DNA from: Halorhabdus rudnickae
GTDB lineage: Archaea > Halobacteriota > Halobacteria > Halobacteriales > Haloarculaceae
NCBI RefSeq assembly: GCF_900880625.1
Contig: NZ_CAAHFB010000001.1
Coordinates: 1,612,001 to 1,676,000, forward strand
Reading direction: 5' to 3'
DNA: 64,000 bases
Shown here in pieces: positions 34,754 through 60,236 of the stretch; position 1 is the stretch's first letter; each line of letters opens with the position of its first letter. The notes under the pieces are model-generated. The model saw only the letters and a program-made list of their open reading frames with translations, was not told the origin of the DNA and ran no database searches. The translations under genes were made by a program, and so were the position numbers.

Positions 34754-35449
34754 GGCGGTGTTTAGTTAAGCGTAAAAAGTGAGGCGTGGCGTTTTCAAAG
34801 TGATCATGCCCGAAAACGCACGCCTCAGCGGTAGTATCGACCAGATCGACTTAGAGTTTGTGGAGCGAGAAGCGACACCGCGATTTTTGATGAAGCTCAG
34901 TATTCAACTGCATCTGGCTGGACTATCGCTTTCAAATACTGTTTCTATTCTTGAGGTATTTGGTGTCCAACGCGCTCGGTCAACCGTGCATAATTGGGTT
35001 CACAAAGCCGATCTACAGCCTGAAACTGGACGAAGCCCGGATCAGATTGCGGTTGACGAAACCGTGATCCGACTCGATGACGAGCGATATTGGCTGTACG
35101 CTGCCGTCGATCCTGAAACAAACGAATTACCCCATACAAAGCTTGATCCGACGACAAATTCGGTCATCGCTCACGCATTCTTTCATGAGCTACGTGAGAA
35201 ACACGACGTTGACGACGCGGTGTTTCTCATCGATGGGTCGCATTCGTTGAAAGACGCCTGCAACCGACACGGTCTCGATTTCAGATACGAAAGACGTGGA
35301 AATCGGAACAGCGTCGAACGTGTCTTTCGTGAGGTGAAACGCCGTACCTCTTCGTTCTCAAACTGTTTTAGCCACGCCGCTGCAGAAACAGCCGACGATT
35401 GGCTCAGATCCTTCGCATTTGCATGGAACCAGCTTATCTGAACACTACC
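34754..35449 (+). mobile_element. IS6-family insertion sequence (ISH15-like), complete
   Basis: Terminal inverted repeats of about 18 bp: left GGCGGTGTTTAGTTAAGC (34754-34771); right end (35432-35449), whose reverse complement is GGTAGTGTTCAGATAAGC. Four of 18 positions differ, so one end has drifted. The transposase stop codon lies inside the right repeat, as usual for these elements. Flanking 8-bp sequences do not form a clear target-site duplication, suggesting an old insertion or a rearranged flank. Confidence 0.8.
34806..35441 (+). CDS. IS6-family DDE transposase
   Basis: A 211-residue transposase from ATG 34806 (the GTG at 34779 is in frame but non-conserved). It has an N-terminal helix-turn-helix region (LSIQLHLAGLSLSNTVSILE, STVHNWVHKADLQ) and the DDE core: IAVDETVIRLDDERYWLYAA (Asp84), VDDAVFLIDGSHSLKDACNR (Asp143) and NRNSVERVFREVKRRTSSFS (probable Glu176). 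The length is normal for haloarchaeal IS6 members and the frame is intact, so it could be active. Confidence 0.9.
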   Translation: MPENARLSGSIDQIDLEFVEREATPRFLMKLSIQLHLAGLSLSNTVSILEVFGVQRARSTVHNWVHKADLQPETGRSPDQIAVDETVIRLDDERYWLYAAVDPETNELPHTKLDPTTNSVIAHAFFHELREKHDVDDAVFLIDGSHSLKDACNRHGLDFRYERRGNRNSVERVFREVKRRTSSFSNCFSHAAAETADDWLRSFAFAWNQLI

Positions 35450-36236: not shown

Positions 36237-36989
36237 TCACGGTCGACCGGTGTGTGACGTGTCCGGACGCGTCTCGTCGGTAACGTATCCCTTCGCGAGT
36301 TGCTCCTCGGCACGTCGCAGCCGGTAGGTCAGCGTCGACCGGGGCACGTCGAGGTGCTCGGCCAACTCGCCGCCGTCGACCTCCCGCGGATTCTCGTAGT
36401 ACCCGTGTTCGACGGCGGCCCGGAGCGCGGCCTCCTGTTCAGCCGAGAGCGTCGTCGATTCGTGGTCGACATCCCCGCCCGGTTCGGCCGTCGCCCCCGT
36501 GCGGAGCATCTCCATTTCGGCGCAGTCCCCGACGGCAGTCTCCAGTGCGTCGAAAAAAGCCGCCACGTTGCCGGTCCCCGAATGGATGATCCGCCAGGTG
36601 TAATGGCGGCCCTCGTGACGCGTGTCGAACAACAGTCCGTCGCCGAGGTGATCCAGCGCAAGATGTGGCACGGAGACACAGACGGGTGAGCGCTCCCAGT
36701 ACGAATAGAGGACGAGCGTGTCGTCGTCGCGGTCGAGGACGTCAGTCGTCTGGGTCGCCCCGCAGTCGTCGGTCGCCAGGCAGTCGGCGTAGTAATCCGT
36801 CGATTTGAAGGCCGTCTCGATGGCCGCGAGCGCGTCGGCCGACCCGCTGGCATGATCGACCCGCCAAAGTCGCTCGTCGGTAGCGTGTAGCGACAGCGAC
36901 CGGATCCGCGCGCCGGGGTGCTCGGCGAGGGTATCCGCGACGGCATTACACCCTGGATCGTACTCCAGGGCGAAGACGAGTTCGCGCAT
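36237..36989 (-). CDS. Bacterio-opsin activator (Bat)-type HTH_10 transcription regulator
   Basis: A 250-residue protein. The C-terminal HTH_10 domain reads LSAEQEAALRAAVEHGYYEN, PREVDGGELAEHLDVPRSTL and TYRLRRAEEQLAKGY, the signature of Bat-like regulators. The N-terminal part (residues 1 to about 170; ELVFALEYDPGCNAVADTLA, LVLYSYWERSPVCVSVPHLA) is a sensory domain of the type common in haloarchaea. It is followed at a distance by the GT2 gene on the same strand; targets unknown. Confidence 0.85.
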   Translation of the reverse strand: MRELVFALEYDPGCNAVADTLAEHPGARIRSLSLHATDERLWRVDHASGSADALAAIETAFKSTDYYADCLATDDCGATQTTDVLDRDDDTLVLYSYWERSPVCVSVPHLALDHLGDGLLFDTRHEGRHYTWRIIHSGTGNVAAFFDALETAVGDCAEMEMLRTGATAEPGGDVDHESTTLSAEQEAALRAAVEHGYYENPREVDGGELAEHLDVPRSTLTYRLRRAEEQLAKGYVTDETRPDTSHTGRP

Positions 36990-37069: not shown

Positions 37070-37807
37070 TCACTCCGCCACGCCGTCGAGGCCGGACCGG
37101 TCGGTCGCTGTGTGCCGTCCGAGGTGCTCTGCAAGCGCGACTTTGCCGATCGACTTTGCGATTGCCGCCCCGCCCGAGAGCGGATCAAGCGTGGTCTCCC
37201 CGACGCGTTCGCGGTACGCGATCGGAATCTCCGTGACTCGGTACCCGCGAATCAGCGGTCGAAGGAGGAGTTCGGCCGACAATCCAGTGTTCTCGGTCCA
37301 CTCGATCGCGTCGATTACTTCACGGCGGTACGCGCGCATGCCCGTGGTCGTGTCGTGGACCCGCTCGCCGACAAGAGCACTCGCGAGCCACGCGAAGACG
37401 TGGTTCCCCAGGCGATTGAACCGCGGCATCGTCTCGGCCCCCGTCGAGAGCCGGTCGCCGCTGACGACGTCGTAGCCGTCGTTGATCGCGGCCAGGAAGT
37501 CCGGCAGTTGCTCCATCGGATAGGTGTCGTCGCAGTCTGTCGTGACGATCACTGGCCGATCCGGCGTCGTGATCGCCTCGTGGACGGCCACGCCGTAGCC
37601 CTGGGGCTCCCGTTCGATCACACGCGCGCCGTGCTCGCGGGCAATCTCGGCCGTCCCGTCGCTCGAACTGTCGACGCAGACGACTTCGGCCTCGCCGTCA
37701 GTCACCCGCTCAATATCATCCAGGACGGTCCCGATCGCCTCCCGCTCGTTGTACGTCCCCATCACGACGCTGACGTCCCCGAACGTGTACGCGCTGTCGT
37801 CGCCCAT
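37070..37807 (-). CDS. Family 2 glycosyltransferase, dolichyl-phosphate hexose synthase-like
   Basis: A 245-residue GT-A protein: DVSVVMGTYNEREAIGTVLD, VVCVDSSSDGTAEIAREHGA, RPVIVTTDCDDTYPMEQLPD (DxD variant DCD) and RVHDTTTGMRAYRREVIDAI, the acceptor loop. No membrane helices. It resembles archaeal enzymes that charge dolichyl phosphate for N-glycosylation. An intact palindrome of the iron-box type lies 31 bp before its ATG (37807), so it may be iron-controlled independently of, or along with, the upstream iron operon. Confidence 0.85.
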   Translation of the reverse strand: MGDDSAYTFGDVSVVMGTYNEREAIGTVLDDIERVTDGEAEVVCVDSSSDGTAEIAREHGARVIEREPQGYGVAVHEAITTPDRPVIVTTDCDDTYPMEQLPDFLAAINDGYDVVSGDRLSTGAETMPRFNRLGNHVFAWLASALVGERVHDTTTGMRAYRREVIDAIEWTENTGLSAELLLRPLIRGYRVTEIPIAYRERVGETTLDPLSGGAAIAKSIGKVALAEHLGRHTATDRSGLDGVAE

Positions 37808-37838: not shown

Positions 37839-37854
37839 TTTAGGTTTGCCTAAA
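37839..37854. promoter_or_regulatory. Iron-box palindrome between GMC oxidoreductase and GT2 genes
   Basis: TTTAGGTTTGCCTAAA differs from the site before the Fe(III) transporter (TTTAGGTTAGCCTAAA) at one central base. It overlaps the TAG stop of the GMC gene (37850-37852) and sits 31 bp upstream of the GT2 start. Occurrence by chance is unlikely given the 6-bp perfect arms, but no clear TATA box flanks it. Confidence 0.6.
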
Positions 37855-39487
37855 GCGCAGTTTCGATATGCTCGGCCGTCCGCAACGCCAGGGCAGCGAT
37901 CGAAAGCGTCGGGTTCATCGCGCCACCGGTCGAGAAGACGCTGCTGCCGGCGACCCAGAGGTTTGGGAGGTCGTGAGTCCGCCCCTGGGCGTTCACCACG
38001 CTCTCCCCTGGGTCGGTCCCCATCTGGGTCGTCCCCATGTGGTGAGCGGCCGGGCCAGTGTTCTCGGGACCGACCTGCCAGGTGATCTCCGCGCCGACTT
38101 CGTCGAGAATCGCCGCCTGGATCTCGTTGGCCCGCTGGATCGTGCGTCGGGTTCGCTCGTCTAGACTCCAGTGGATCTCCGGGACGGGATTGCCGTGGTC
38201 GTCGGTGCGGGAGGGATCGAGAGTCACGCGGTTCTCCCGGCGCGGGGTCTGCTCGACCAGCGCACCCACGGTGAGGTGGTTGCCGTACGCGTCGGCGACG
38301 CGATCCCGCAGTTCGTCGCCCCATCCGCCGTCGGTAAGCGCCGCCTCGACTGGCGAGGGGCCGGCGTAGTTGAGGAATTCGAGTTTGATCGCGCCAAAAT
38401 CGTCGTTCGCACCCTCGGCTGCGGGAATTCCCTGCGCGGTCCCCGCCGCTGGCTCGTCGTAGAACTGGTGGGACTCGGTGGTGTTGAACCCGACGTGATG
38501 CTGGCGGGTCGGGCGGTCGACCACGCCGCCCGTCCCGGCAAAGAGGTGCTCGGTGAAGTACCGGCCCACGAGCCCACTGCTGTTGGCCAGGCCGTCAGGA
38601 TACTGCGACGACTCCGAGAGCAAGAGCAGCCGCGGCGTCTCGACCCCGCCGGCCGCGAGGACGAACTGCCGTGCCTCCTGGCGGTGGGTCTGGCCCTCGG
38701 GGGTCGCGTAGACGGCCGCCGTGACGCGCTCGCCCGCGTCGTCGTGTTCGAGACGCTGGACCGGTGCCCGATCGATCACTCGCGCTCCAGCCGCCTCGGC
38801 TTTGTCGACGTGACTCGTGGCGTCGTACTTCGCGCCCGAGGGACAGACCGGCTGGCACGTGCCGTACCCGACACAGGCACTGCGATCGTCGTAGGGTTCG
38901 GAATTACGGGCGTTGGGCACCGAGTGGGTCGTGATCCCCAGCGACTCGCAGGCGTCCGCGAAGATCGAGTCGCTGTATGAGGGTTCGAACGCCGCCAGCG
39001 GATGGGGTCGCTCACGTGGCGGCGCGAAGGGGTTGTCACTGGCGCCAGCGACGCCCAGCGCCGCCTCCGCCTCCGCGTAGTACGGCCGGAGATCGTCGTA
39101 GTCGATCGGCCAGTCGGCCCCGACGCCATCCTGGGACTCGACTGCGAAATCGCGCTCGTGGAGGCGCATCACCATCCCCTGCCAGTGCAACGTCGATCCA
39201 CCGACACCTTTCACGCGGGTGTGATTGAGCGGATAGCCGCGATCGCCACTCGATGTGAAGGCGTCGCGATCGCCGCCCATCTCCCAGACGTCGGGTCGGC
39301 CGTGAGCCGGCCGCAGGGCGTCCTCCATCCGCTCGATCCGTCGCTCGCGGTCGAACCGCGGGCCGGCTTCCAGCACGACCACCGCGTGGCCTGTGGAAGC
39401 CAACCGATTGGCGATCAGCGCGCCGGCTGGACCGGCACCGACGACGCAGACGTCCGCGCGGTCGCCGGGCGTGCGATCGACGCTCAC
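37850..39487 (-). CDS. GMC-family FAD oxidoreductase (gluconate/sugar dehydrogenase large subunit-like)
   Basis: A 545-residue protein from GTG 39487, overlapping the subunit-3 stop by 4 nt. DVCVVGAGPAGALIANRLAS is the FAD Rossmann motif (GxGxxG), VVLEAGPRF follows, and VKGVGGSTLHWQGMVMRLHE is the GMC signature. CVGYGTCQPVCPSGAKYDAT is a Cys-rich loop seen in gluconate and sorbitol dehydrogenases. HHMGTTQMGTDPGESVVNAQ and NLWVAGSSVFSTGGAMNPTL contain the catalytic His/Asn region. It has no signal peptide; in bacterial relatives it is exported by piggybacking on the Tat signal of subunit 3, encoded just upstream here. Substrate unknown: an aldose, aldonate or polyol. Confidence 0.88.
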   Translation of the reverse strand: MSVDRTPGDRADVCVVGAGPAGALIANRLASTGHAVVVLEAGPRFDRERRIERMEDALRPAHGRPDVWEMGGDRDAFTSSGDRGYPLNHTRVKGVGGSTLHWQGMVMRLHERDFAVESQDGVGADWPIDYDDLRPYYAEAEAALGVAGASDNPFAPPRERPHPLAAFEPSYSDSIFADACESLGITTHSVPNARNSEPYDDRSACVGYGTCQPVCPSGAKYDATSHVDKAEAAGARVIDRAPVQRLEHDDAGERVTAAVYATPEGQTHRQEARQFVLAAGGVETPRLLLLSESSQYPDGLANSSGLVGRYFTEHLFAGTGGVVDRPTRQHHVGFNTTESHQFYDEPAAGTAQGIPAAEGANDDFGAIKLEFLNYAGPSPVEAALTDGGWGDELRDRVADAYGNHLTVGALVEQTPRRENRVTLDPSRTDDHGNPVPEIHWSLDERTRRTIQRANEIQAAILDEVGAEITWQVGPENTGPAAHHMGTTQMGTDPGESVVNAQGRTHDLPNLWVAGSSVFSTGGAMNPTLSIAALALRTAEHIETAL

Positions 39488-40029
39488 GACTGGGGCCCCC
39501 GCTGGTAGCTCGCAAGCCCGCCCGGGTGGCCCGGCGGGTTCTCGATCCCGACCAATTCGGCGCCGGTCGGCGAGGCGTACAGCGCCAACAACAGATCGTT
39601 TATCACGTAGTAGCGAAGGCGTTCGACGTCGCCGCCGGTCGGATCGGAAGCGGCCTCGTCGGCCCCCATCCGCCGGAGCGCCCCATCGCGGTCGCCGACC
39701 GACAGCGCCCTGAACTCGCTGTCGAACCACGCCCGGCAGTACTCGTCGAGATAGGCCACGCTGTCGGCGATCCCGGCAGCGTGTTCGGGGCGATCGGCCA
39801 CCCGTCCCGCGGCGTAGCGCTCGACGAACGGCTGGATCGCCGTTACGTCCACGGGATAGAGCACCTCGGCGACGGCAGCCAGCGTTTCCCGATCGTGGTC
39901 AGTGAGGGGATCGTCGTGGTCGTCGCTCTGGCCGCCACTGTCAGCCGAAGGTGCGACACAGCCGGCCAGCGACGCCCCGACGGCCGACAGCGCTGCGATC
40001 GCGTCGCGTCTGGTGAGTTCGTGGCTCAT
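39484..40029 (-). CDS. Gluconate 2-dehydrogenase subunit 3-like Tat lipoprotein
   Basis: A 181-residue protein. The N terminus SHELTRRDAIAALSAVGASL has a twin-Arg motif, and SLAGC is a lipobox (Cys at about residue 24). After a Ser/Asp linker, DHDRETLAAVAEVLYPVDVT, AYLDEYCRAWFDSEFRALSV and VINDLLLALYASPTGAELVG, then GHPGGLASYQRG match gluconate 2-dehydrogenase subunit 3. This subunit binds and exports the GMC flavoprotein encoded next. It starts with a 4-nt overlap with the glycosyltransferase gene. Confidence 0.88.
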   Translation of the reverse strand: MSHELTRRDAIAALSAVGASLAGCVAPSADSGGQSDDHDDPLTDHDRETLAAVAEVLYPVDVTAIQPFVERYAAGRVADRPEHAAGIADSVAYLDEYCRAWFDSEFRALSVGDRDGALRRMGADEAASDPTGGDVERLRYYVINDLLLALYASPTGAELVGIENPPGHPGGLASYQRGPQS

Positions 40030-42047
40030 GGGTTCTCTCTCGGTGCGGTTGTCGCTCGCAGTGCAGTCCGGACGAAAATCCCATCGGGTGATTCCGACGG
40101 TAGGTACGTCGCTGCGCCCCCGCAGGCCCGGGCATCGAGACAGTACTCGACGCTGGGGGTCAGCGCACGTACCTGCCCACCCCTCATTTCGACTGGAACC
40201 GATAGTCGGTACTCGAATCCGGAGACGCCGTCGTCGGCGAAGACCGTCACGTCGACGGCTCCCCCGTCGACAGCCGGTGGATCGCCGCCGGTCAGTTCGA
40301 GCGGACCAGCAATCCGGACTGTCCCGTCGCTGATCACGACACGGAACTGCAGATCGTCGGCGGTACCGCTCGCGACGTAGTGGGCTGCCCCGGCGTCGGT
40401 CTCGACGGTGACGGTCGCGCTCGTGACCCGCTCGGGAAGTCCGACGGTCGCGTTCAGCGCAATTGATTCCCCCGTCCGTTCGCGGACGCGCTGCAGTCGG
40501 GCGGCTTCGGGAGAACCGCCGAGTGGATCCCAGACCCCGCGATAGCCAAAGCGATAGAGATCCCGGTCGGGGAACGCGTCGGCGATGGCGAACGGTCGGT
40601 CGTCCATAGCATAGACCGTCCGGCCGTCGTAACTCGGATCGTTCCGCAGCACCTGGAAGGGATGGTTGAGCCAGGGGCCGTAGGGTGTCGGCGTCAAGAC
40701 GACGGCGTTAGCGGGCGGTTCGGGTTCGAGCGGCGCGTAGGTCCGCTCGTAGGTGTCGGTCACGCCCGCGTTGCGCTCGACGGGAGCACCGGCCCGGTCG
40801 GCCGTGAGTCCGCCGAGGACGAGCGTACTTGCGAGGGCGACCGCAGCCAGTCCAGCCAGTGCAGTCCGGCGGTCGAGCCGATCGTCGAACGCGTTTCGCA
40901 GGGTGTCGAAGCCAGCAAGCGCGGCGACCGCGGCGAACGCAGCAGTCGGGACCAACAGATCGAAGTGGTAGTACGGACCCAGTGCGGCGATCAGGCCGTC
41001 GCCGGCCACGTCGAGGTCGCCGAGCAAGTTGTAGTTGCCCCAGAAGTAGAGGTTCCCGACGGGGACCGAGACGGCGAGACCGGCGAGGACGGCAACCCGC
41101 GGTGACCACTGTCGGCGGGCGGCGATGACCAGTCCCGTGAGCGCGAGGGCCCCACCGAGAATTCCGCCGGCAATCCAGCGGTCGACGAACGCGGCGAGGA
41201 CGTTCCAGTTGGCCGCCAGTGCCAGTTCAGGCGTGTACGCGACGGAGTGATCCAGGATTTGTCGGTGGCCGAACCCGAGACCGTCCAGCGGGGCGAAGGC
41301 TTCGTAGGGAAAGGTCAGGGGTGAGCCAGTGACGAGGGCGTTGTAGCCAAGCGTCAGCCCGACGCCGGCAAGCCCGAGCGCCGCGGTCGAGGCCTGTCGA
41401 GGCAGCGCAGTCCGCCAGTTTCGGGTGAGCGTCCAGAATGCGTGGGCGACGAACGGCACGGCGAACAGGACGGCAGTGTACGGTCGGGCGAAGAACGCGA
41501 GGCCGATCGCCGCGCCCGCCGCCGCTGCCCACCGCCAGTCGTCCGTTCGGTCGGCTCGCAAGTAGCCGTACGCGAACCCGAGGTTCAGCAGCGTCGTCGG
41601 TGCGTACGGGAGGAAGGTCGCCGTATCGAGGACAAACAAGGGTGAAGCCAGCACGAAGACGGCCGCAAGCAAGCCGGTTCGACGATCGAAGACCTCGCTC
41701 GTGACGCCCGCGACGCCCGCGAGAATTCCGGCCGCGATGGCGGGCAGCGCCAGCCGGTAGCCACCGAAGAGTTCCCCGAGGGCGAACATCGCCGCAGTGA
41801 CTGGGTTGTATTTGGGATAGAGTCTATCGCCCCCCTCGACGAAGAACCACGGCCGGAAGACGCCCTCGACGGGCGGCTGAAGGTGAACTTTCCCGTCCAG
41901 AAGCATCGCGGCCTGCTGGAGGTAGACTCCCTCGTCGTGATTCAGCGAGTGGTACGGAAAGAGTTCCGTCGAGACGAGCCAGATCGTGAGTGCGCCGACA
42001 AACGCGATCGCGAGCGTGACGATTCGAAAACGGCGTCGATCCATCAC
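40026..42047 (-). CDS. GT-C (family 39/ArnT-like) membrane glycosyltransferase
   Basis: A 673-residue protein with about 10-12 helices in the first 430 residues and a soluble C-terminal part of beta character. The first extracellular loop HSLNHDEGVYLQQAAMLLDG carries the DE motif of GT-C enzymes, which use polyprenyl-phosphate sugars. YPKYNPVTAAMFALGELFGG and LPYAPTTLLNLGFAYGYLRA fit dolichyl-phosphate-mannose-type transferases. The extracellular C-terminal domain (ITSAT-like strands, VDVTVFADDGVSGFEYRLSV) may bind the acceptor. The start overlaps the stop of the iron ABC ATPase by 4 nt, tying it to iron uptake. Confidence 0.8.
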   Translation of the reverse strand: MMDRRRFRIVTLAIAFVGALTIWLVSTELFPYHSLNHDEGVYLQQAAMLLDGKVHLQPPVEGVFRPWFFVEGGDRLYPKYNPVTAAMFALGELFGGYRLALPAIAAGILAGVAGVTSEVFDRRTGLLAAVFVLASPLFVLDTATFLPYAPTTLLNLGFAYGYLRADRTDDWRWAAAAGAAIGLAFFARPYTAVLFAVPFVAHAFWTLTRNWRTALPRQASTAALGLAGVGLTLGYNALVTGSPLTFPYEAFAPLDGLGFGHRQILDHSVAYTPELALAANWNVLAAFVDRWIAGGILGGALALTGLVIAARRQWSPRVAVLAGLAVSVPVGNLYFWGNYNLLGDLDVAGDGLIAALGPYYHFDLLVPTAAFAAVAALAGFDTLRNAFDDRLDRRTALAGLAAVALASTLVLGGLTADRAGAPVERNAGVTDTYERTYAPLEPEPPANAVVLTPTPYGPWLNHPFQVLRNDPSYDGRTVYAMDDRPFAIADAFPDRDLYRFGYRGVWDPLGGSPEAARLQRVRERTGESIALNATVGLPERVTSATVTVETDAGAAHYVASGTADDLQFRVVISDGTVRIAGPLELTGGDPPAVDGGAVDVTVFADDGVSGFEYRLSVPVEMRGGQVRALTPSVEYCLDARACGGAATYLPSESPDGIFVRTALRATTAPRENP

Positions 42048-43183
42048 TCGGTAGGGAACCAGGCGAGGGCGTGGTCGGTCGCCAGGCGGACCCGCACGCG
42101 CTTGTCGATCCCGAGTTCCTCGGCGTGGTTGTGCTCACAATGCAGGACAGCCCCCGAATCGAGTTCGACAGTATAGACGAACGAGGGGCCGGTATACTGC
42201 CGGTTGACGATTCGACCGTTGGTACCCGCGGGATCGGCCGGCACGGCCCGGATGTCGTCCGGCCGGACGAGCACGTCGATCTCGGCTCCCTCGTACTCGG
42301 TGTCGAGTCCCTCGATGCGACCGGCATCGAGACAGCCAAGCGGCGTCTCGACACAGCCCTCGGCGAAAGTCCCCGAGACGAACCCGGCCTGGCCGAGGAA
42401 CTCGGCGACAAAGCGAGACTCTGGTTGCTGGAAGACGACTTCCGGGCGGCCGATCTGTTCGACCCGACCGTCGTCGATGACGGCCACACGATCGCTAATC
42501 GAGAGGGCCTCCTCCTGGTCGTGGGTGACCGAGACGGCAGTCACGCCGGTCTCCTTGATGATGCGGCGGACCTCCCGGCGCATCTCCTCGCGGAGCCCGA
42601 CGTCGAGATTCGAGAATGGCTCGTCCAGCAAGAGCACGTCGGGTTCGGGCGCGAGCGAGCGGGCGAGAGCGACCCGCTGGCGCTGGCCCCCGGAGAGATC
42701 CTCCGGGCTGGCCTCGCGGTAGTCGGCGAGCCCGACCAGTTCCAGCAGTTTGTCGACGCGCTCGTCGATCGCGTCCTGCGTGCGATCCTGGAGCCCGAAG
42801 GCGACGTTCTCCCCGACAGTGAGGTGTGGGAAGAGAGCGAACTCCTGGAAGACCAGGCCGACGTCGCGGTTCTCCGGCTTGACGAACGTGCCTTCGCCCG
42901 CGACGGTCTCGCCGGCGACCCGGATCGCCCCGGCGTCGGGTTCGTCCAGACCCGCGAGCAGGCGTAGCGTCGTCGTCTTCCCACAACCCGAGGGGCCAAG
43001 CAGCGTCAGCAGTTCGCCGTCACGGACCGACAGCGAGAGGTCGGCGACGGCCGTCTCAGTCCCGAACTGCCGGGTGACGCCATCCAGTTCCAGGATCGCC
43101 TCGCGGTTCTCGTCGGTCGATTCGTCTCTGTCGGTCGCCTGAGGTTGTGCCTCCACGCGGGTCGACGGTTGTGAGGCGGTCAC
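42044..43183 (-). CDS. Fe(III) ABC transporter ATP-binding protein (FbpC-like)
   Basis: A 379-residue protein with Walker A LLGPSGCGKTTTLRLLAGLD, Q-loop LVFQEFALFPHLTVGENVAF, signature LSGGQRQRVALARSLAPEPD, Walker B VLLLDEPFSNLDVGL and H-loop VSVTHDQEEALSISDRVAV. A C-terminal TOBE domain (about 260-379) is present (DVLVRPDDIRAVPADPAGTN). The domain length fits the FbpC/PotA group. The 4-nt overlaps with permease and glycosyltransferase genes place it mid-operon. Confidence 0.88.
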   Translation of the reverse strand: MTASQPSTRVEAQPQATDRDESTDENREAILELDGVTRQFGTETAVADLSLSVRDGELLTLLGPSGCGKTTTLRLLAGLDEPDAGAIRVAGETVAGEGTFVKPENRDVGLVFQEFALFPHLTVGENVAFGLQDRTQDAIDERVDKLLELVGLADYREASPEDLSGGQRQRVALARSLAPEPDVLLLDEPFSNLDVGLREEMRREVRRIIKETGVTAVSVTHDQEEALSISDRVAVIDDGRVEQIGRPEVVFQQPESRFVAEFLGQAGFVSGTFAEGCVETPLGCLDAGRIEGLDTEYEGAEIDVLVRPDDIRAVPADPAGTNGRIVNRQYTGPSFVYTVELDSGAVLHCEHNHAEELGIDKRVRVRLATDHALAWFPTE

Positions 43184-44817
43184 GTGTTCGATCCCTCCTG
43201 TGAGAGGATGACGGCCATCGAGAATCCGGAAATGACGATCAACGCAAGCGCGGGAACGGCGGCCCGGCCGTAGAGACCGGCCTCCCGGACGCGCCAGATG
43301 TAGGTTACGAGAGTATGGTCGAAGGTGAACGGCCGCATCATCTGTGTTACCGGTAGTTCCTTCATCGTCGTCAAAAAGACCAGGGCTGCGCCGGTCGCGA
43401 TCCCTGGCGCGATCAGCGGCAGCGTCACCGCCCGGAAGGCACCGAGTCGGGTCCGGCCCAGCGTCCGGGCAGCTTCGATCAATCGGCGATCAACCTGCAT
43501 CGTCGAGGCCCGGATCGCCCCGATGGCCTGCGGGACGAACCGGACGACGTAGGCGAAGATGAGCAGTGGGAGCGTCCTGTATACTAGCTCCGTCATCGAC
43601 TTTGGGAGGCCGTGGAGACTCGCCAGCAACAGGGCGATCGCCAGGACGACTCCCGGCGTCGCGTACCCGACGTACGAGAGTCGATCGGCCAGCGCGGCCA
43701 GCCGGGACCGCCCGCGTGCCGCCGCGACCGCGATCGGCAGGGCGACCAAAAGCGACGCCCCGGCGGCCAGCAATGCCAGGTACACCGAGTTCCAACCGTA
43801 GGTCCAGGAGAAGGCCATCCCGCCCGCGGTGTAACCGCCCGCGTTACTCGAGAGCCACAGTCCGAAGACGATCACCGGGAGGGCGACCGCCAGCCCCGCG
43901 ACGACGGCGGGAAAGAGCGCGGCGACGTACCGCCAGTTCCCGAGTTCGATGACCGCGCCGCCACTGCTCCCTCGGCTCTGATAGGCACCCTCGTCGTCGG
44001 CCCCGATCTGCGATTCGAGATAGAGGATCGCCGCGGTCACGCCGAGCAACTGGATCGACAGCAGGGCGGCCCACGGTCGCATGTGATTGTTGTATCGCGC
44101 GTAGATCGCCTGGGTGAACACCTCGACGCCCATGAAGTTCGGCGTCCCGAAGTCCGCGAGCGCATACAGCGTGACCAGCAACGCCCCGGCGGCGATTCCG
44201 GGTGCGATCTGTGGCAGCGTCACCCGTCGGAAAGACTCGAGTCGTCCGGCGTCGAGCGTCCGGGCGGCCTCGAGCAGCGAGGTATCCAGCGACAACAGCG
44301 ACGCCCGCGTCGTCAATAGGACGTAGGGGTAGGTGTACAGCGTCAAGACGAGTGCCGCGCCGGCAAACCCGCTGATCTCGGGAATCTGTTCGATCTCGAT
44401 CGGTGCGAGGACACCGGTCAGAATCCCGCCGGTACCGAAGGCCGAGAGGACCGCAAGCGCCCCGAGATAGCTCGGGATCGCCAGGGGAAGCGCCGCCAAG
44501 ACCGTGAACAGCCGCGCGAACGGCAGGTCGGTCCGGGCGGTCAACAGTGCGATCGGGACGCCGACGAGCACGCTCGCCACCGTGACGACGGCGACGAGCG
44601 CGACGCTGCGGATCAGGATCTCGATCGTCCGGGGATCGACCGTGAGTGCGAACGCGCGCGGACCGAGGTCGAACACCTCGACGAACAGCCACCCCAGGGG
44701 CGCGACCAGCGCGACGGCGACGGCGATCGCGAGCAGCGTCAGCCCCGAGGGGCGGCCCGAACCGGCGGCTCCCGGAAGGCGCGCGCCCAGTCCGTGGGTC
44801 CCGCTCTCGCGGCTCAT
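43180..44817 (-). CDS. Fe(III) ABC transporter permease, two fused permease domains (FbpB-like)
   Basis: A 545-residue protein with twelve predicted helices in two repeated permease domains. Each half has the EAA loop that contacts the ATPase: LLEAARTLDAGRLESFRRVT and LIEAARTLGRTRLGAFRAVT, both followed by LP-IAPGIA. This fused architecture is typical for FbpB/SfuB ferric-iron permeases. It overlaps the binding-protein gene by 4 nt. Confidence 0.9.
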   Translation of the reverse strand: MSRESGTHGLGARLPGAAGSGRPSGLTLLAIAVAVALVAPLGWLFVEVFDLGPRAFALTVDPRTIEILIRSVALVAVVTVASVLVGVPIALLTARTDLPFARLFTVLAALPLAIPSYLGALAVLSAFGTGGILTGVLAPIEIEQIPEISGFAGAALVLTLYTYPYVLLTTRASLLSLDTSLLEAARTLDAGRLESFRRVTLPQIAPGIAAGALLVTLYALADFGTPNFMGVEVFTQAIYARYNNHMRPWAALLSIQLLGVTAAILYLESQIGADDEGAYQSRGSSGGAVIELGNWRYVAALFPAVVAGLAVALPVIVFGLWLSSNAGGYTAGGMAFSWTYGWNSVYLALLAAGASLLVALPIAVAAARGRSRLAALADRLSYVGYATPGVVLAIALLLASLHGLPKSMTELVYRTLPLLIFAYVVRFVPQAIGAIRASTMQVDRRLIEAARTLGRTRLGAFRAVTLPLIAPGIATGAALVFLTTMKELPVTQMMRPFTFDHTLVTYIWRVREAGLYGRAAVPALALIVISGFSMAVILSQEGSNT

Positions 44818-45974
44818 CCCGAGACGCCGGCCTCGGACATCAACTCGAGGGTCGGCTCGAGGTCGGCCAGGTCGGCCAGGTCGATGTCCGGCGGGTTCAG
44901 TTCGTCGACGGTGGGCAGGCCGCCGACCGGCTCGACGCCGGTGATCATCGGGTAGGCGAAACTGACGGTCGCGAAGAACTCCTGGGCTTCCGCCGAGAGC
45001 AGGTGACGGACGAAGTCAGTGATCAACTCGTCCTTTTCGGTCCCCTCGATCTGGAGGACACCGGCGACGTTGACCAGCCCGCCCGCGTCACCGCTCGTGA
45101 AGGCCAGATCGAGCGGGGCGTCGGGATGCTGGGTCTTGACGCGCATCGCGTAGTAGTGATTGGCGAATCCGGCGGTCAACTCGCCGTCGGCGACCGCCTC
45201 CGTGACGAGGTACTCGTTTGGGTACCGTTCGGTTCCCGCCTCGCGCATCGACGTCAGCCACTCCCGGGTCGCGTCTGCACCCTGTTGCAACCGCATCGCG
45301 GTCACGAAGGACTTGAACGCGCCGTAGGTCGGTGCCCACCCCATCGCCCCCTGTAAGGCGTCGGTCCCGGGGAACTGCGCGACTTTCCCGGGAATCTCGC
45401 TCTCGTCGATGGCGTTCGTATTGTACGGGACGCTCCGGGCGCGGCCGGTGACACCGACCCACGACCTGTCCGCGCCCTGGAAGTCCGCCGGGACGGGCTC
45501 GAGTGCCTCCTCGGCCAGCGGCTCGTAGGCGTCGTTCTCGGAGACGTAGCCCAGCGATGCGGCATCGATCGACCAGAAGAGATCCGCCTGGCTGGCTCCG
45601 GACTCGACCTCCTCGACGATCTGCTGGGCAAGCGATGCCGAGGGCGAGGGACTGCTGAACACCGAAAAATTCGGATAGATGTCCTCGAGCATCGTAATGA
45701 ATTTTTGATAGATGCCGCCCTCGCCGCCCCCGATATAGAGGTTCAACGTCCCCGAGAGATCCGGCAACTCTTCGATCGAAGTACCGCCGGGTGCCGGCCG
45801 GCCCTCGGCCAGCGCGCCCGATCCGCGGAACTGTGCGAGCGACGGGATCGAGATCTCCCCGCTGCTATCTGTCGTCTCGCCGCCGAGGGAACCCATACAG
45901 CCCGCCAGACCGGCCAGCGTCCCTGCACTGACCGCCCCCAGAAACCGCCGTCGACTCGTCGATCGCTCGGTCAT
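44814..45974 (-). CDS. Fe(III) ABC transporter substrate-binding Tat lipoprotein (FbpA-like)
   Basis: A 386-residue protein. The N terminus TERSTSRRRFLGAVSAGTLA then GLAGC gives a Tat signal with lipobox (Cys about 26). The mature part matches ferric-iron binding proteins: TLNLYIGGGEGGIYQKFITM, ADLFWSIDAASLGYVSENDA, RARSVPYNTNAIDESEIPGK and FAYPMITGVEPVGGLPTVDE. YNTN and late Tyr residues are probable Fe ligands. First gene of a six-gene overlapping operon; a TATA box and a perfect iron-box palindrome lie directly upstream. Confidence 0.9.
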   Translation of the reverse strand: MTERSTSRRRFLGAVSAGTLAGLAGCMGSLGGETTDSSGEISIPSLAQFRGSGALAEGRPAPGGTSIEELPDLSGTLNLYIGGGEGGIYQKFITMLEDIYPNFSVFSSPSPSASLAQQIVEEVESGASQADLFWSIDAASLGYVSENDAYEPLAEEALEPVPADFQGADRSWVGVTGRARSVPYNTNAIDESEIPGKVAQFPGTDALQGAMGWAPTYGAFKSFVTAMRLQQGADATREWLTSMREAGTERYPNEYLVTEAVADGELTAGFANHYYAMRVKTQHPDAPLDLAFTSGDAGGLVNVAGVLQIEGTEKDELITDFVRHLLSAEAQEFFATVSFAYPMITGVEPVGGLPTVDELNPPDIDLADLADLEPTLELMSEAGVSG

Positions 45975-45980
45975 TCTGGT

Positions 45981-46007
45981 TTTAGGTTAGCCTAAATCCA
46001 TATAAAC
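45981..46007 (-). promoter_or_regulatory. Promoter and perfect iron-box palindrome of the Fe(III) uptake operon
   Basis: TTTAGGTTAGCCTAAA (45981-45996) is a palindrome with 6-bp perfect arms, ending 6 bp before the ATG at 45974. On the same strand a TATA box (ggtttatatgg, about 46000-46007) lies about 26-33 bp upstream of the ATG. Transcription should start within a few bases of the ATG (leaderless), so a repressor on the palindrome would block initiation. A DtxR/SirR/Idr-type iron regulator is the likely binder. Confidence 0.75.
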
Positions 46008-51676: not shown

Positions 51677-53380
<1,704 letters not shown>

Positions 53381-57548: not shown

Positions 57549-58175
57549 CTACCCGACGGAGAAGAACTGGAAGAGATCATCGCGTTCGGCGTCGTGGAGG
57601 TGCGTCCGGACGGCTTCGTTCATCGCGTTGATCGACCCACGTTTGGCGGTGATCGGCGCGATGGTGTCCTGCCACTGTTTCCATGGTGGATGCAGGCCCA
57701 GACGATCACACAGTTCGTTCAGTCGCTCGTCGCGGTCGTCGACCTTGTCCATCTTGTTGACCGCGACGACCGGCGGGATCCCGACGTCCCGGAGGAAGTG
57801 AAACAGTTCGACGTCGTGGGGGATCTCGTCGGAACCGGAATGGCGATCGATAATGTCGATGACGCTCTTGCCGTCGACGACGAGCACGCCGACCAGAATC
57901 TGCTCGGCGTATTCCTCGACGTACCGGACGACGTCGGTCTTGATCTCCTCGCGGGCCTCGTCGGGAACGCCTTCCATGTAGCCAAAGCCCGGCAGATCCG
58001 TCAGGACGAAATCCTGGCCCGTCCAATCGTAGTGGTTGGGTTCGCGAGTCACGCCCGGTCGCTGTCCGGTGTCGAAGGTATGGCCGGTCAACTCCCGCAT
58101 GAGCGTGGACTTGCCTACGTTGGATCGCCCGAGGAGGACGACCTCAGCGTCGCGGTCCGGCCGCGTCTCGAACAT
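57549..58175 (-). CDS. engB: GTP-binding protein EngB (YsxC family)
   Basis: A 208-residue protein: [20 protein letters not shown] (G1), [16 protein letters not shown] (G2), [20 protein letters not shown] (G3, DLPGFGY is the EngB hallmark), [20 protein letters not shown] (G4) and [20 protein letters not shown] (G5). EngB assists large-subunit assembly. It is divergent from the small membrane protein at 58258. Confidence 0.92.
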
Positions 58176-58257
58176 AGCCGGTCTAGGGCTCGCGAGCGGA
58201 AAGGAGCCGCGATCCCTCGGCAGAACTCCGTTGGGCGTGACGGGTCAGCCACCGGGC

Positions 58258-58524
58258 ATGAACGTCGGTCGCGCCGTGGGAGTGGCGCTGCTCGCACTAG
58301 TCGACGCGACGGCCGCCGGATTGCTCGCAGGGTTCGCTACGCTGTGGCTCGTTCCGTTTCTGTGGGCGAGCGACGCGGTGCTGGTCGCCACGATCGTCTT
58401 CGGTGTAGTCACCGGAACCGTACTCGCGATCGCGCTGACGCTAGCCCACCGCGGCGAGCAGCCGTTCCCCGCGACGCGTCTGGCCCTCGGCGTCCTGGAT
58501 CGATTGCCGCGTTGGTGGCCGTGA
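58258..58524 (+). CDS. Small two-to-three-helix membrane protein
   Basis: An 88-residue protein from ATG 58258 with hydrophobic segments VALLALVDATAAGLLAGFAT, LWLVPFLWASDAVLVATIVF and VVTGTVLAIALTLAHR, ending in a basic tail (LDRLPRWWP). No family was recognised. The longer reading upstream to 58036 runs over engB and is not real. The 58525-58790 gap after it shows no gene I can support. Confidence 0.6.
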   Translation: MNVGRAVGVALLALVDATAAGLLAGFATLWLVPFLWASDAVLVATIVFGVVTGTVLAIALTLAHRGEQPFPATRLALGVLDRLPRWWP

Positions 58525-58790
58525 GAGTGAGCATCGTCGACTGTCGAGGAGCGTTTGGGACTTCAGCGTCTCGCCCCGCGATCGGACAGACGGTTGGCGC
58601 GCATTTCGAAGTGGCCCACAGTGCCCGGTGTGAACTCGATACGGATTGGTTCCGACATTTCGAACCAACGTGCAGGTCGAACTACTCACACGAATCAAGG
58701 ATGATTTTTCACTAGCATCTCGAAGGTTTAGGACTACCAAATATCAAAATGTAAATACCATTCTCCAGAATGGAAGACTGGTTGTTCAGA

Positions 58791-60236
58791 ATGTCTGAAC
58801 AGAATTGGTCCCGCGAAGCGAGTCGACGCACGGTCCTCAAGACAACTGCGGCTTCGATCGCCGGGCTCTCCGGCGTGGGGAGTTCATTGGTATCCCTCGG
58901 CCGGGGTGCCGAGGGGTCGAATCCGCAACCAGTTACCGATCCCGAACCTGCACCTGCGCCCTCGATTTACATCGCATCGGACCTGCAGGAGTTCAACTGG
59001 CCAATCCTCCTCGGGAACGAGCGAGATTCGATGGCCGACGCACTCACCGGCTACGTTGACGATGCCACAGTTAGCCGGGAACAGAAACGGACTGCCCGTG
59101 AATCTCTAAAAGACATCTGGTCAGAAGTTGAGATCAAATCTAAGACCAAGCCCTGGCATGTGATCCAGAAACAACGTGAAAAAGAGGGACGGGACAAACC
59201 GAAAACACACGACAGCGACCTACGAGGAGGGCAAGGCCACAAGAAGAGACAGAAGTCCCAGAAAGGAGGCAACGCCAAGCCCCAAATTCGGCGTGATGAT
59301 AAAACGACAGTGTACAAATTAAAAGGAGACAAACAGAAGGCAAAGACGGTGTTGGATGATGCCGAACGAACAGTCCGTCAAACCGGAAATATCTCTGTAG
59401 CTACAAGCCAGGACGCAGAATCTCTGGCAAGCCTATCAAGCGTGATCGAGTCCGGTGCGACTTCATCTGGTGAAAACGAAGAAGGTTCCGAAAACATATC
59501 GCCTCAATGGAAGGGGGGTGACGGTGACGGGAACTATGACGGCCACAACTATCTATCACGTTGGGCGGGGAAGAATATGAATATTGACGATGAATTATCA
59601 GAGACACTATCAAATAATGCCCCAAAGCCGGATGACTGGCCATACGATTTCCCACCGGGAACGATTCCCCAGAAATTCGATGGAACGCCCACGGGCGAAG
59701 ATTTGGCGCAGTCATATGCACATGCCTGGAACCCGTTAACAAAGATCGGTCATGCTGATCATTTCTTAGACGAGCGAATGAACAATGCGGTAGACCACGC
59801 CGAAGAGAGTACCGAACGGTATCAAGAAGTCGGCTATGCTATGCACTTTCTCCAAGATCTCGGAAACCCATTACACACTAATATGTTCGAAGAGCAATTA
59901 CGTAATAGGTGGGTTCACTTTAAATATGAACGAAAAGTTGCGGACTATCTCGAAGACGGACACATAATGACGAGAAATATTGAGAATATAGAACAGTATA
60001 ATCCTGTACCAGATCCTCTCCCATGGGAAGGTTCGAAGTGGGGAGAACATGGACACCAATTAGCGACATTCTCTGCAAATTATGCATCTGATTTCCTCAC
60101 CATTATTATAGAACATGAAGGCGAGGATCCACTGGCAAACAGTAATGCGTTAGTGACTGATACACAAAAAGTCCTCGAGAAAACGACGAAGTACTCCATG
60201 GGGCTGATTGGAGAGATCCACCCTCGATACGAGTGA
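58791..60236 (+). CDS. Tat-exported zinc phospholipase C/S1-P1 nuclease-fold protein
   Basis: A 481-residue protein from ATG 58791. Residues 1-40 are a Tat signal (SREASRRTVLKTTAASIAGL, twin Arg 12-13), without lipobox. A Lys/Gln-rich middle (about 115-190) is unusual for a halophile. The C-terminal domain (about 245-420) carries the His/Asp pattern of zinc-dependent phospholipase C and nuclease P1: HNYLSRWAG (His252), YAHAWNPLTKIGHADHFLDE (His311, 321, 324), YAMHFLQDLGNPLHTNMFEE (His352, Asp356, His362) and a later His376. Predicted to hydrolyse phosphodiester bonds outside the cell. AT-rich codon use differs from neighbours. Four lipoprotein genes follow at once. Confidence 0.8.
   Translation: MSEQNWSREASRRTVLKTTAASIAGLSGVGSSLVSLGRGAEGSNPQPVTDPEPAPAPSIYIASDLQEFNWPILLGNERDSMADALTGYVDDATVSREQKRTARESLKDIWSEVEIKSKTKPWHVIQKQREKEGRDKPKTHDSDLRGGQGHKKRQKSQKGGNAKPQIRRDDKTTVYKLKGDKQKAKTVLDDAERTVRQTGNISVATSQDAESLASLSSVIESGATSSGENEEGSENISPQWKGGDGDGNYDGHNYLSRWAGKNMNIDDELSETLSNNAPKPDDWPYDFPPGTIPQKFDGTPTGEDLAQSYAHAWNPLTKIGHADHFLDERMNNAVDHAEESTERYQEVGYAMHFLQDLGNPLHTNMFEEQLRNRWVHFKYERKVADYLEDGHIMTRNIENIEQYNPVPDPLPWEGSKWGEHGHQLATFSANYASDFLTIIIEHEGEDPLANSNALVTDTQKVLEKTTKYSMGLIGEIHPRYE

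Follow-up and report, generated by a model that had tools for sequence, protein, structure and literature searches.

A boxed gene set in Halobacteria that links FbpA-like uptake genes with a GT-C glycosyltransferase and a putative sugar dehydrogenase: a possible iron-starvation module

The transporters closest to the locus described here are the FbpABC/HitABC systems, which it resembles in its binding protein, in a YY motif and in having a permease and an ATPase gene side by side. It differs from them in that the binding protein is an archaeal Tat lipoprotein, the permease is fused, the ATPase was not found in 28 of the 79 regions compared, and the transporter is tied to glycan and sugar-oxidase genes. 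A second point of comparison is the FAD dehydrogenase complexes acting on glucose in Burkholderia and on fructose in Gluconobacter, with which the locus shares a catalytic subunit with 3Fe-4S cysteines and a His/Asn pair, and probably also the small subunit with an RR signal. In contrast to those complexes, 82 of 83 loci showed no multihaem cytochrome gene within 5 kb, an iron box lies at the gene start, and the enzyme differs at two positions next to the catalytic histidine. In Collimonas, a GMC enzyme with a Tat-signal small subunit converts glucose to gluconic acid and drives mineral weathering, the gluconic acid and protons mobilising mineral nutrients; passages of that paper call its expression higher in medium without Fe and Mg, and others report rather similar expression across treatments (PMC12542777). 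The Collimonas system differs from ours in being bacterial and in having a cytochrome subunit, and the same passages name no glycosyltransferase partner (PMC12542777). Finally, the schizokinen genes of Hfx. volcanii are, in the parts of the proteome study considered, likewise connected with a haloarchaeal iron-starvation response (PMC11349517). They differ in that PF04183 (IucA/IucC) has no match in the genome analysed here and no such synthetase is found among the genes of the proposed module.

The window is a 64,000-nucleotide stretch of the Halorhabdus rudnickae genome. The original prediction described within it a row of six genes with five 4-nt overlaps; all six minus-strand ORFs were found, running from 45974 to 37850, and the overlaps, which read ATGA, GTGA, GTGA, ATGA and GTGA, lie exactly where it had put them. 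The six genes encode an FbpA-like Tat/lipobox binding protein matching SBP_bac_6/8 (SBP, 44814..45974), a fused two-domain ABC permease (PERM, 43180..44817), an ABC ATPase with a TOBE_2 domain match (42044..43183), a GT-C glycosyltransferase with PMT_2 and a C-terminal DUF7846 domain (40026..42047), a Gluconate_2-dh3 small subunit that in the window genome has an RR signal and a lipobox (G2D, 39484..40029), and a GMC dehydrogenase (37850..39487). The next gene after GMC, absent from that prediction, is GT2 (37070..37807, minus strand), a dolichyl-phosphate hexose transferase that scores 396.5 bits with NF041391, above the cut-off of 375, and has a box of its own. The nearest named relatives of the GT-C protein are those of Halorhabdus salina and H. 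amylolytica (79%).

Directly after GT2 lies a gene for an HTH_10 regulator with an HVO_2928_N domain (36237-36989 of the window), and such a regulator likewise follows GT2 in Halorhabdus amylolytica (L189). Elsewhere in the window we noted a low-GC patch with a weak IS240-like DDE transposase match below the Pfam cut-off (34779-35441), an OrfB_IS605/TnpB-like transposase gene (52054-53328), and two ORFs of 373 and 488 aa without a Pfam match (57594-60236), which border a low-GC stretch (58-62 kb).

A putative operator, TTAGGCTAACCTAA, of the form TTTAGGN4CCTAAA, lies ahead of the operon (45982..45995, minus strand), just after a TTTATATGG stretch and with 7 nt between the end of the box and the ATG of SBP. 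It had been called a perfect palindrome, which is slightly overstated because one central pair is mismatched, the arms themselves being perfect. A second putative operator, TTAGGCAAACCTAA (37840..37853, minus strand), covers the stop codon of GMC and stands 32 nt ahead of GT2. The exact pattern TTAGGN4CCTAA, which we take to be the site of a DtxR-type protein, occurs at six places in the 3.36 Mb genome, two of them in the operon; as a control, the pattern read backwards occurs at two places in the same genome, and therefore one or two of the six boxes could be due to chance. Other boxes stand just before the genes of an RGP-like protein, a DUF5059 protein and a Peripla_BP_2 lipoprotein; the gene of a NirK-like multicopper protein has one at its start or close to it. 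The palindromic boxes at promoters are as expected of a DtxR regulon, and Fe_dep_repr_C has three matches in the window genome.

An exact box stands 14 nt upstream of the start of the RGP/GT75-like gene (PF03214; L147:320-1486, which is G000:C6 near 288277). The original prediction did not include this gene. It is outside the operon in the window genome, but in most of the relatives examined it immediately precedes the transporter. The boxed NirK-like multicopper protein, DUF5059 Tat lipoprotein and Peripla_BP_2 lipoprotein of the window genome were read in loci L142, L145 and L146.

The 119 loci read (2.10 Mb) contain 271 exact boxes in all and no copy of the reversed control pattern, and 255 of the 271 fall at -300 to +60 of the start of a queried gene; these counts describe placement and not discovery, because the loci were chosen around the queried genes. 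Among testable homologues, a box stands at the gene start of RGP in 76 of 80, of G2D in 62 of 89, of SBP in 58 of 81, of GT2 in 36 of 81 and of PERM in 19 of 85, falling to 2 of 53 for the ATPase and 0 of 90 for GT-C. For GMC the figure is 11 of 83, and 11 of 12 where GMC stands first. Of 78 loci, 57 have an exact box in the 200 bp ahead of SBP, versus 1.9% of random stretches from the same loci. In 183 of 192 promoters a gap of 3 to 20 nt separates the end of the box from the first in-frame start, and a repressor on a box so near the start codon could block transcription.

We also read 40 GMC-centred regions, chosen by hand. No SBP, PERM, GT-C or GT2 was found in 30 of them. In 28 of the 30 a box still precedes G2D or GMC, the exceptions being L161 and L162. 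Eight genomes have G2D still behind GT-C and GMC apart with its own box (split pairs L082/L159, L083/L160, L077/L167, L097/L168, L092/L171, L136/L172, L118/L173 and L095/L174). G2D and GMC are split in G304 too (L087/L161), without a GMC box.

Gene linkage was read from 80 regions around GT-C in 79 genomes, picked by hand among the matches listed, mostly one to a few per genus, and these are therefore not a random sample. SBP, PERM and GT-C occur jointly in 75 of the 79 regions; RGP is present in 78, GT2 in 72, G2D in 60, the ATPase in 51 and GMC in 43. Whenever GMC is in the region G2D is there with it, and 17 regions have G2D only and 19 neither. Depending on the region, the pair follows GT-C on its strand, lies convergent to GT2, or precedes RGP and the transporter. 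GT-C alone was found in the region of G183. In 57 named loci, Halobacterium salinarum among them and some probably the same species as the 79 genomes, SBP and PERM were present in 55 and RGP in 54. On a Salarchaeum plasmid, all eight genes stand in a row on one strand (RefSeq annotation). Taken together, the Halobacteria sampled carry these parts in several different arrangements. As a side observation, the RefSeq annotation of Halobaculum limi (L259:4226-5437) places a PQQ-binding-like beta-propeller gene between GMC and RGP, and L065, L136 and L137 hold a second GT-C copy (44-49% to the GT-C of the window) in the same cluster, after the ATPase.

Conservation of the 4-nt overlaps, raised with the original prediction, held in Halorhabdus relatives (5 of 5 in L062 and L064, 4 of 5 in L063) and was partial across loci, where adjacent pairs keep the overlap in 18 of 65 cases for SBP/PERM, 10 of 43 for PERM/ATPase, 22 of 45 for ATPase/GT-C, 8 of 30 for GT-C/G2D and 62 of 71 for G2D/GMC. 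The linkage of the six genes itself is borne out by relatives, many of which have them joined or, when separated, boxed, and the last three genes proved linked to the transporter there. Shared boxes and linkage are both well supported.

GT-C matches were obtained in 306 of the 391 genomes of the class. GMC matches at E <= 0.001 were obtained in 378 of the 391, many of them weak FAD-domain matches. For the co-occurrence count, GMC was accepted only below E 1e-100, one weak GT-C match was treated as absent, and the lists were compared by eye. Without correction for ancestry, both genes are present in 294 genomes, neither in 82, GT-C only in 11 and GMC only in 4. This agreement in 376 of 391 genomes, uncorrected as it is, leads us to argue for a joint role of the two genes. 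DUF7846 occurs in 40 of 294 genomes of the phylum, all 40 in the same order as the window genome, and among 14 control genomes in Hfx. volcanii only.

The SBP matches 28 solved sequences at E <= 0.001, most of them named iron-binding (7w3w, E 1e-45), and NHYY (residues 272-275 in the window protein) is present in 83 of 83 aligned SBPs. We take its adjacent tyrosines to be the iron ligands. By sequence the protein resembles FbpA, in agreement with the predicted Fe(III) binding lipoprotein, and is an FbpA-like, putative Fe(III) binder.

Linkage, shared boxes, co-occurrence and conserved residues, both catalytic and like iron ligands, are what was observed. We propose that these genes form an iron-starvation module in which an extracellular sugar is built and oxidised to hold Fe(III) for FbpA-like uptake, a reading to which we give slightly less than an even chance. 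A DtxR-type repressor would sit on the boxes just before the start codons and be released at low iron. The RGP-like enzyme and GT2 would make an activated hexose and load it onto dolichyl phosphate, from which GT-C would transfer it to an acceptor outside the membrane, where the Tat-exported G2D-GMC pair would oxidise the sugar. The oxidised sugar would keep Fe(III) in solution close to the FbpA-like lipoprotein, and the lipoprotein would hand the iron to the permease. We infer the iron response, the order of the steps, the acceptor, the product and the iron binding of such a module.

The GMC protein matches the Burkholderia glucose dehydrogenase at E 3e-91 and fructose dehydrogenase at E 1e-79. 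Its Cys205/211/215 are kept in 84 of 84 homologues, and His482 and Asn525 each in 83 of 84, that of the window included. They align with Cys212/218/222 and His476/Asn519 of the Burkholderia glucose dehydrogenase, residues whose roles are described in the parts of the glucose dehydrogenase paper considered (PMC6719666), and by this alignment Cys205/211/215 would be the 3Fe-4S ligands. The Burkholderia residues Asn474/Asn475, beside the catalytic histidine, correspond to sugar-contacting residues of cellobiose dehydrogenase and are replaced here by Ala and mostly Tyr or Phe; because these two positions differ, gluconate should not be assumed. The FAD motif of GMC starts so near the N-terminus that it leaves no room for the usual signal. 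G2D is probably its escort, since RR lies near the start in 88 of 89 G2D homologues, as expected of a Tat escort, and this is consistent with the predicted role of subunit 3 as the Tat carrier of GMC. A lipobox pattern is present in only 23 of the 89, which counts against the module, and membrane anchoring is therefore not general. The best match of the G2D model (pLDDT 75.8) is 9jqa chain B, from fructose dehydrogenase, with a Z of 6.1 (next 3.7) and an rmsd of 4.0 over 101 residues; for a helical protein such a Z is modest. Neither the G2D profile against solved sequences nor the model in Foldseek at E <= 0.001 gave a match.

The usual acceptor subunit was not seen: 82 of 83 loci, some of them cut short by locus ends, lack any ORF with at least two CxxCH motifs within 5 kb. 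This absence and the invariance of the 3Fe-4S cysteines would both suit an extracellular ferric reduction, in which GMC oxidises a sugar and electrons pass from FAD through 3Fe-4S to Fe(III), so that iron is freed for uptake. Hfx. volcanii is reported to reduce Fe(III) in a 2026 paper whose main text mentions neither GMC nor gluconate (PMC13104607). However, the importer is FbpA-like, of the class that binds Fe(III), and an acceptor encoded elsewhere could serve, including single-haem cytochromes or genes past the locus ends. We consider ferric reduction unlikely and yet a live explanation.

The model of the GT-C protein (pLDDT 89.7) has Foldseek matches to AglB, OST, ArnT and ALG9, and D38 E39, an acidic pair near the first membrane helix and presumably the catalytic pair, is invariant in 36 GT-C sequences. 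Judged by its modelled fold and this acidic pair, the DUF7846 protein is a GT-C glycosyltransferase. The likeness of the model to AglB/OST, ArnT and PMT would also fit surface glycosylation, GT2 and GT-C modifying the binding protein or the S-layer in iron stress while GMC acts as an independent iron-responsive catabolic enzyme, and G2D-GMC is indeed often a separate unit. GMC nevertheless tracks GT-C across the class (376 of 391, ancestry uncorrected), and we think surface glycosylation improbable, although it too is live.

Very doubtful, in our view, is that the genes have only a regulator in common, the box marking a general response to metals or redox state and the gene neighbourhood reflecting inheritance and not function: boxes also at the starts of the NirK-like copper protein and the DUF5059 protein in the window genome point that way, as do co-occurrence counts uncorrected for ancestry, but lineages keep the boxes and the partners in differing arrangements, and in the eight genomes with G2D and GMC in two boxed places both persist. 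Given the linkage, the boxes on separated genes and the co-occurrence, we reject the idea that the last three genes stand next to the transporter by chance.

The reading we favour is that the oxidised extracellular sugar is a ligand for Fe(III); ferric reduction and surface glycosylation are its live rivals. Counting against the module are the position of GMC outside 36 of the 79 regions, the 45 of 81 GT2 homologues without an exact box, a crude TATA-like string just ahead of the box in no more than 70 of 192 promoters, the two differing positions next to the catalytic histidine of GMC, the rather similar expression reported for the Collimonas enzyme, and the cost of an Fe-S enzyme under iron shortage. 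Also against it is the lack of any mention of GMC, gluconate or glycosyltransferase in the main text of the study on the proteome of iron-starved Hfx. volcanii (PMC11349517). In the parts of that study considered, HVO_1859 (UPF0104) is 11.6-fold up in iron starvation (PMC11349517), and papers in which HVO_1861 and HVO_1862 are named deal with other functions. A UPF0104-like membrane protein gene occurs in 19 of our 79 regions, just upstream of RGP in L075 and L122; it is not established as the counterpart of HVO_1859. A search of the open-licence literature for VNG0919-0924 led nowhere, and one for the module, likewise within the open-licence literature, gave no paper, an earlier mention being possible in iron-regulon work.

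An IucA/IucC-type synthetase over the family cut-off is absent from 280 of 391 Halobacteria genomes, the window's included, a count that concerns the IucA/IucC class only. PF04183 is present in 37 of 93 genomes without GMC versus 74 of 298 with it, uncorrected for ancestry, and the complementarity between siderophore synthesis and GMC is weak.

In its most specific form our proposal is of a sugar-based iron carrier, assembled via dolichyl phosphate and GT-C, turned by an FAD/3Fe-4S dehydrogenase that dispenses with the usual cytochrome subunit into a ligand of Fe(III), or else into a source of electrons for it, imported in the FbpA-like manner and governed by one kind of box; this combination we put forward tentatively, as possible but rather doubtful. 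Hfx. volcanii carries the DUF7846 family, which would make the module open to genetics. If the proposal is true, the boxed set would explain the iron acquisition of some Halobacteria, as an archaeal route beside siderophores.
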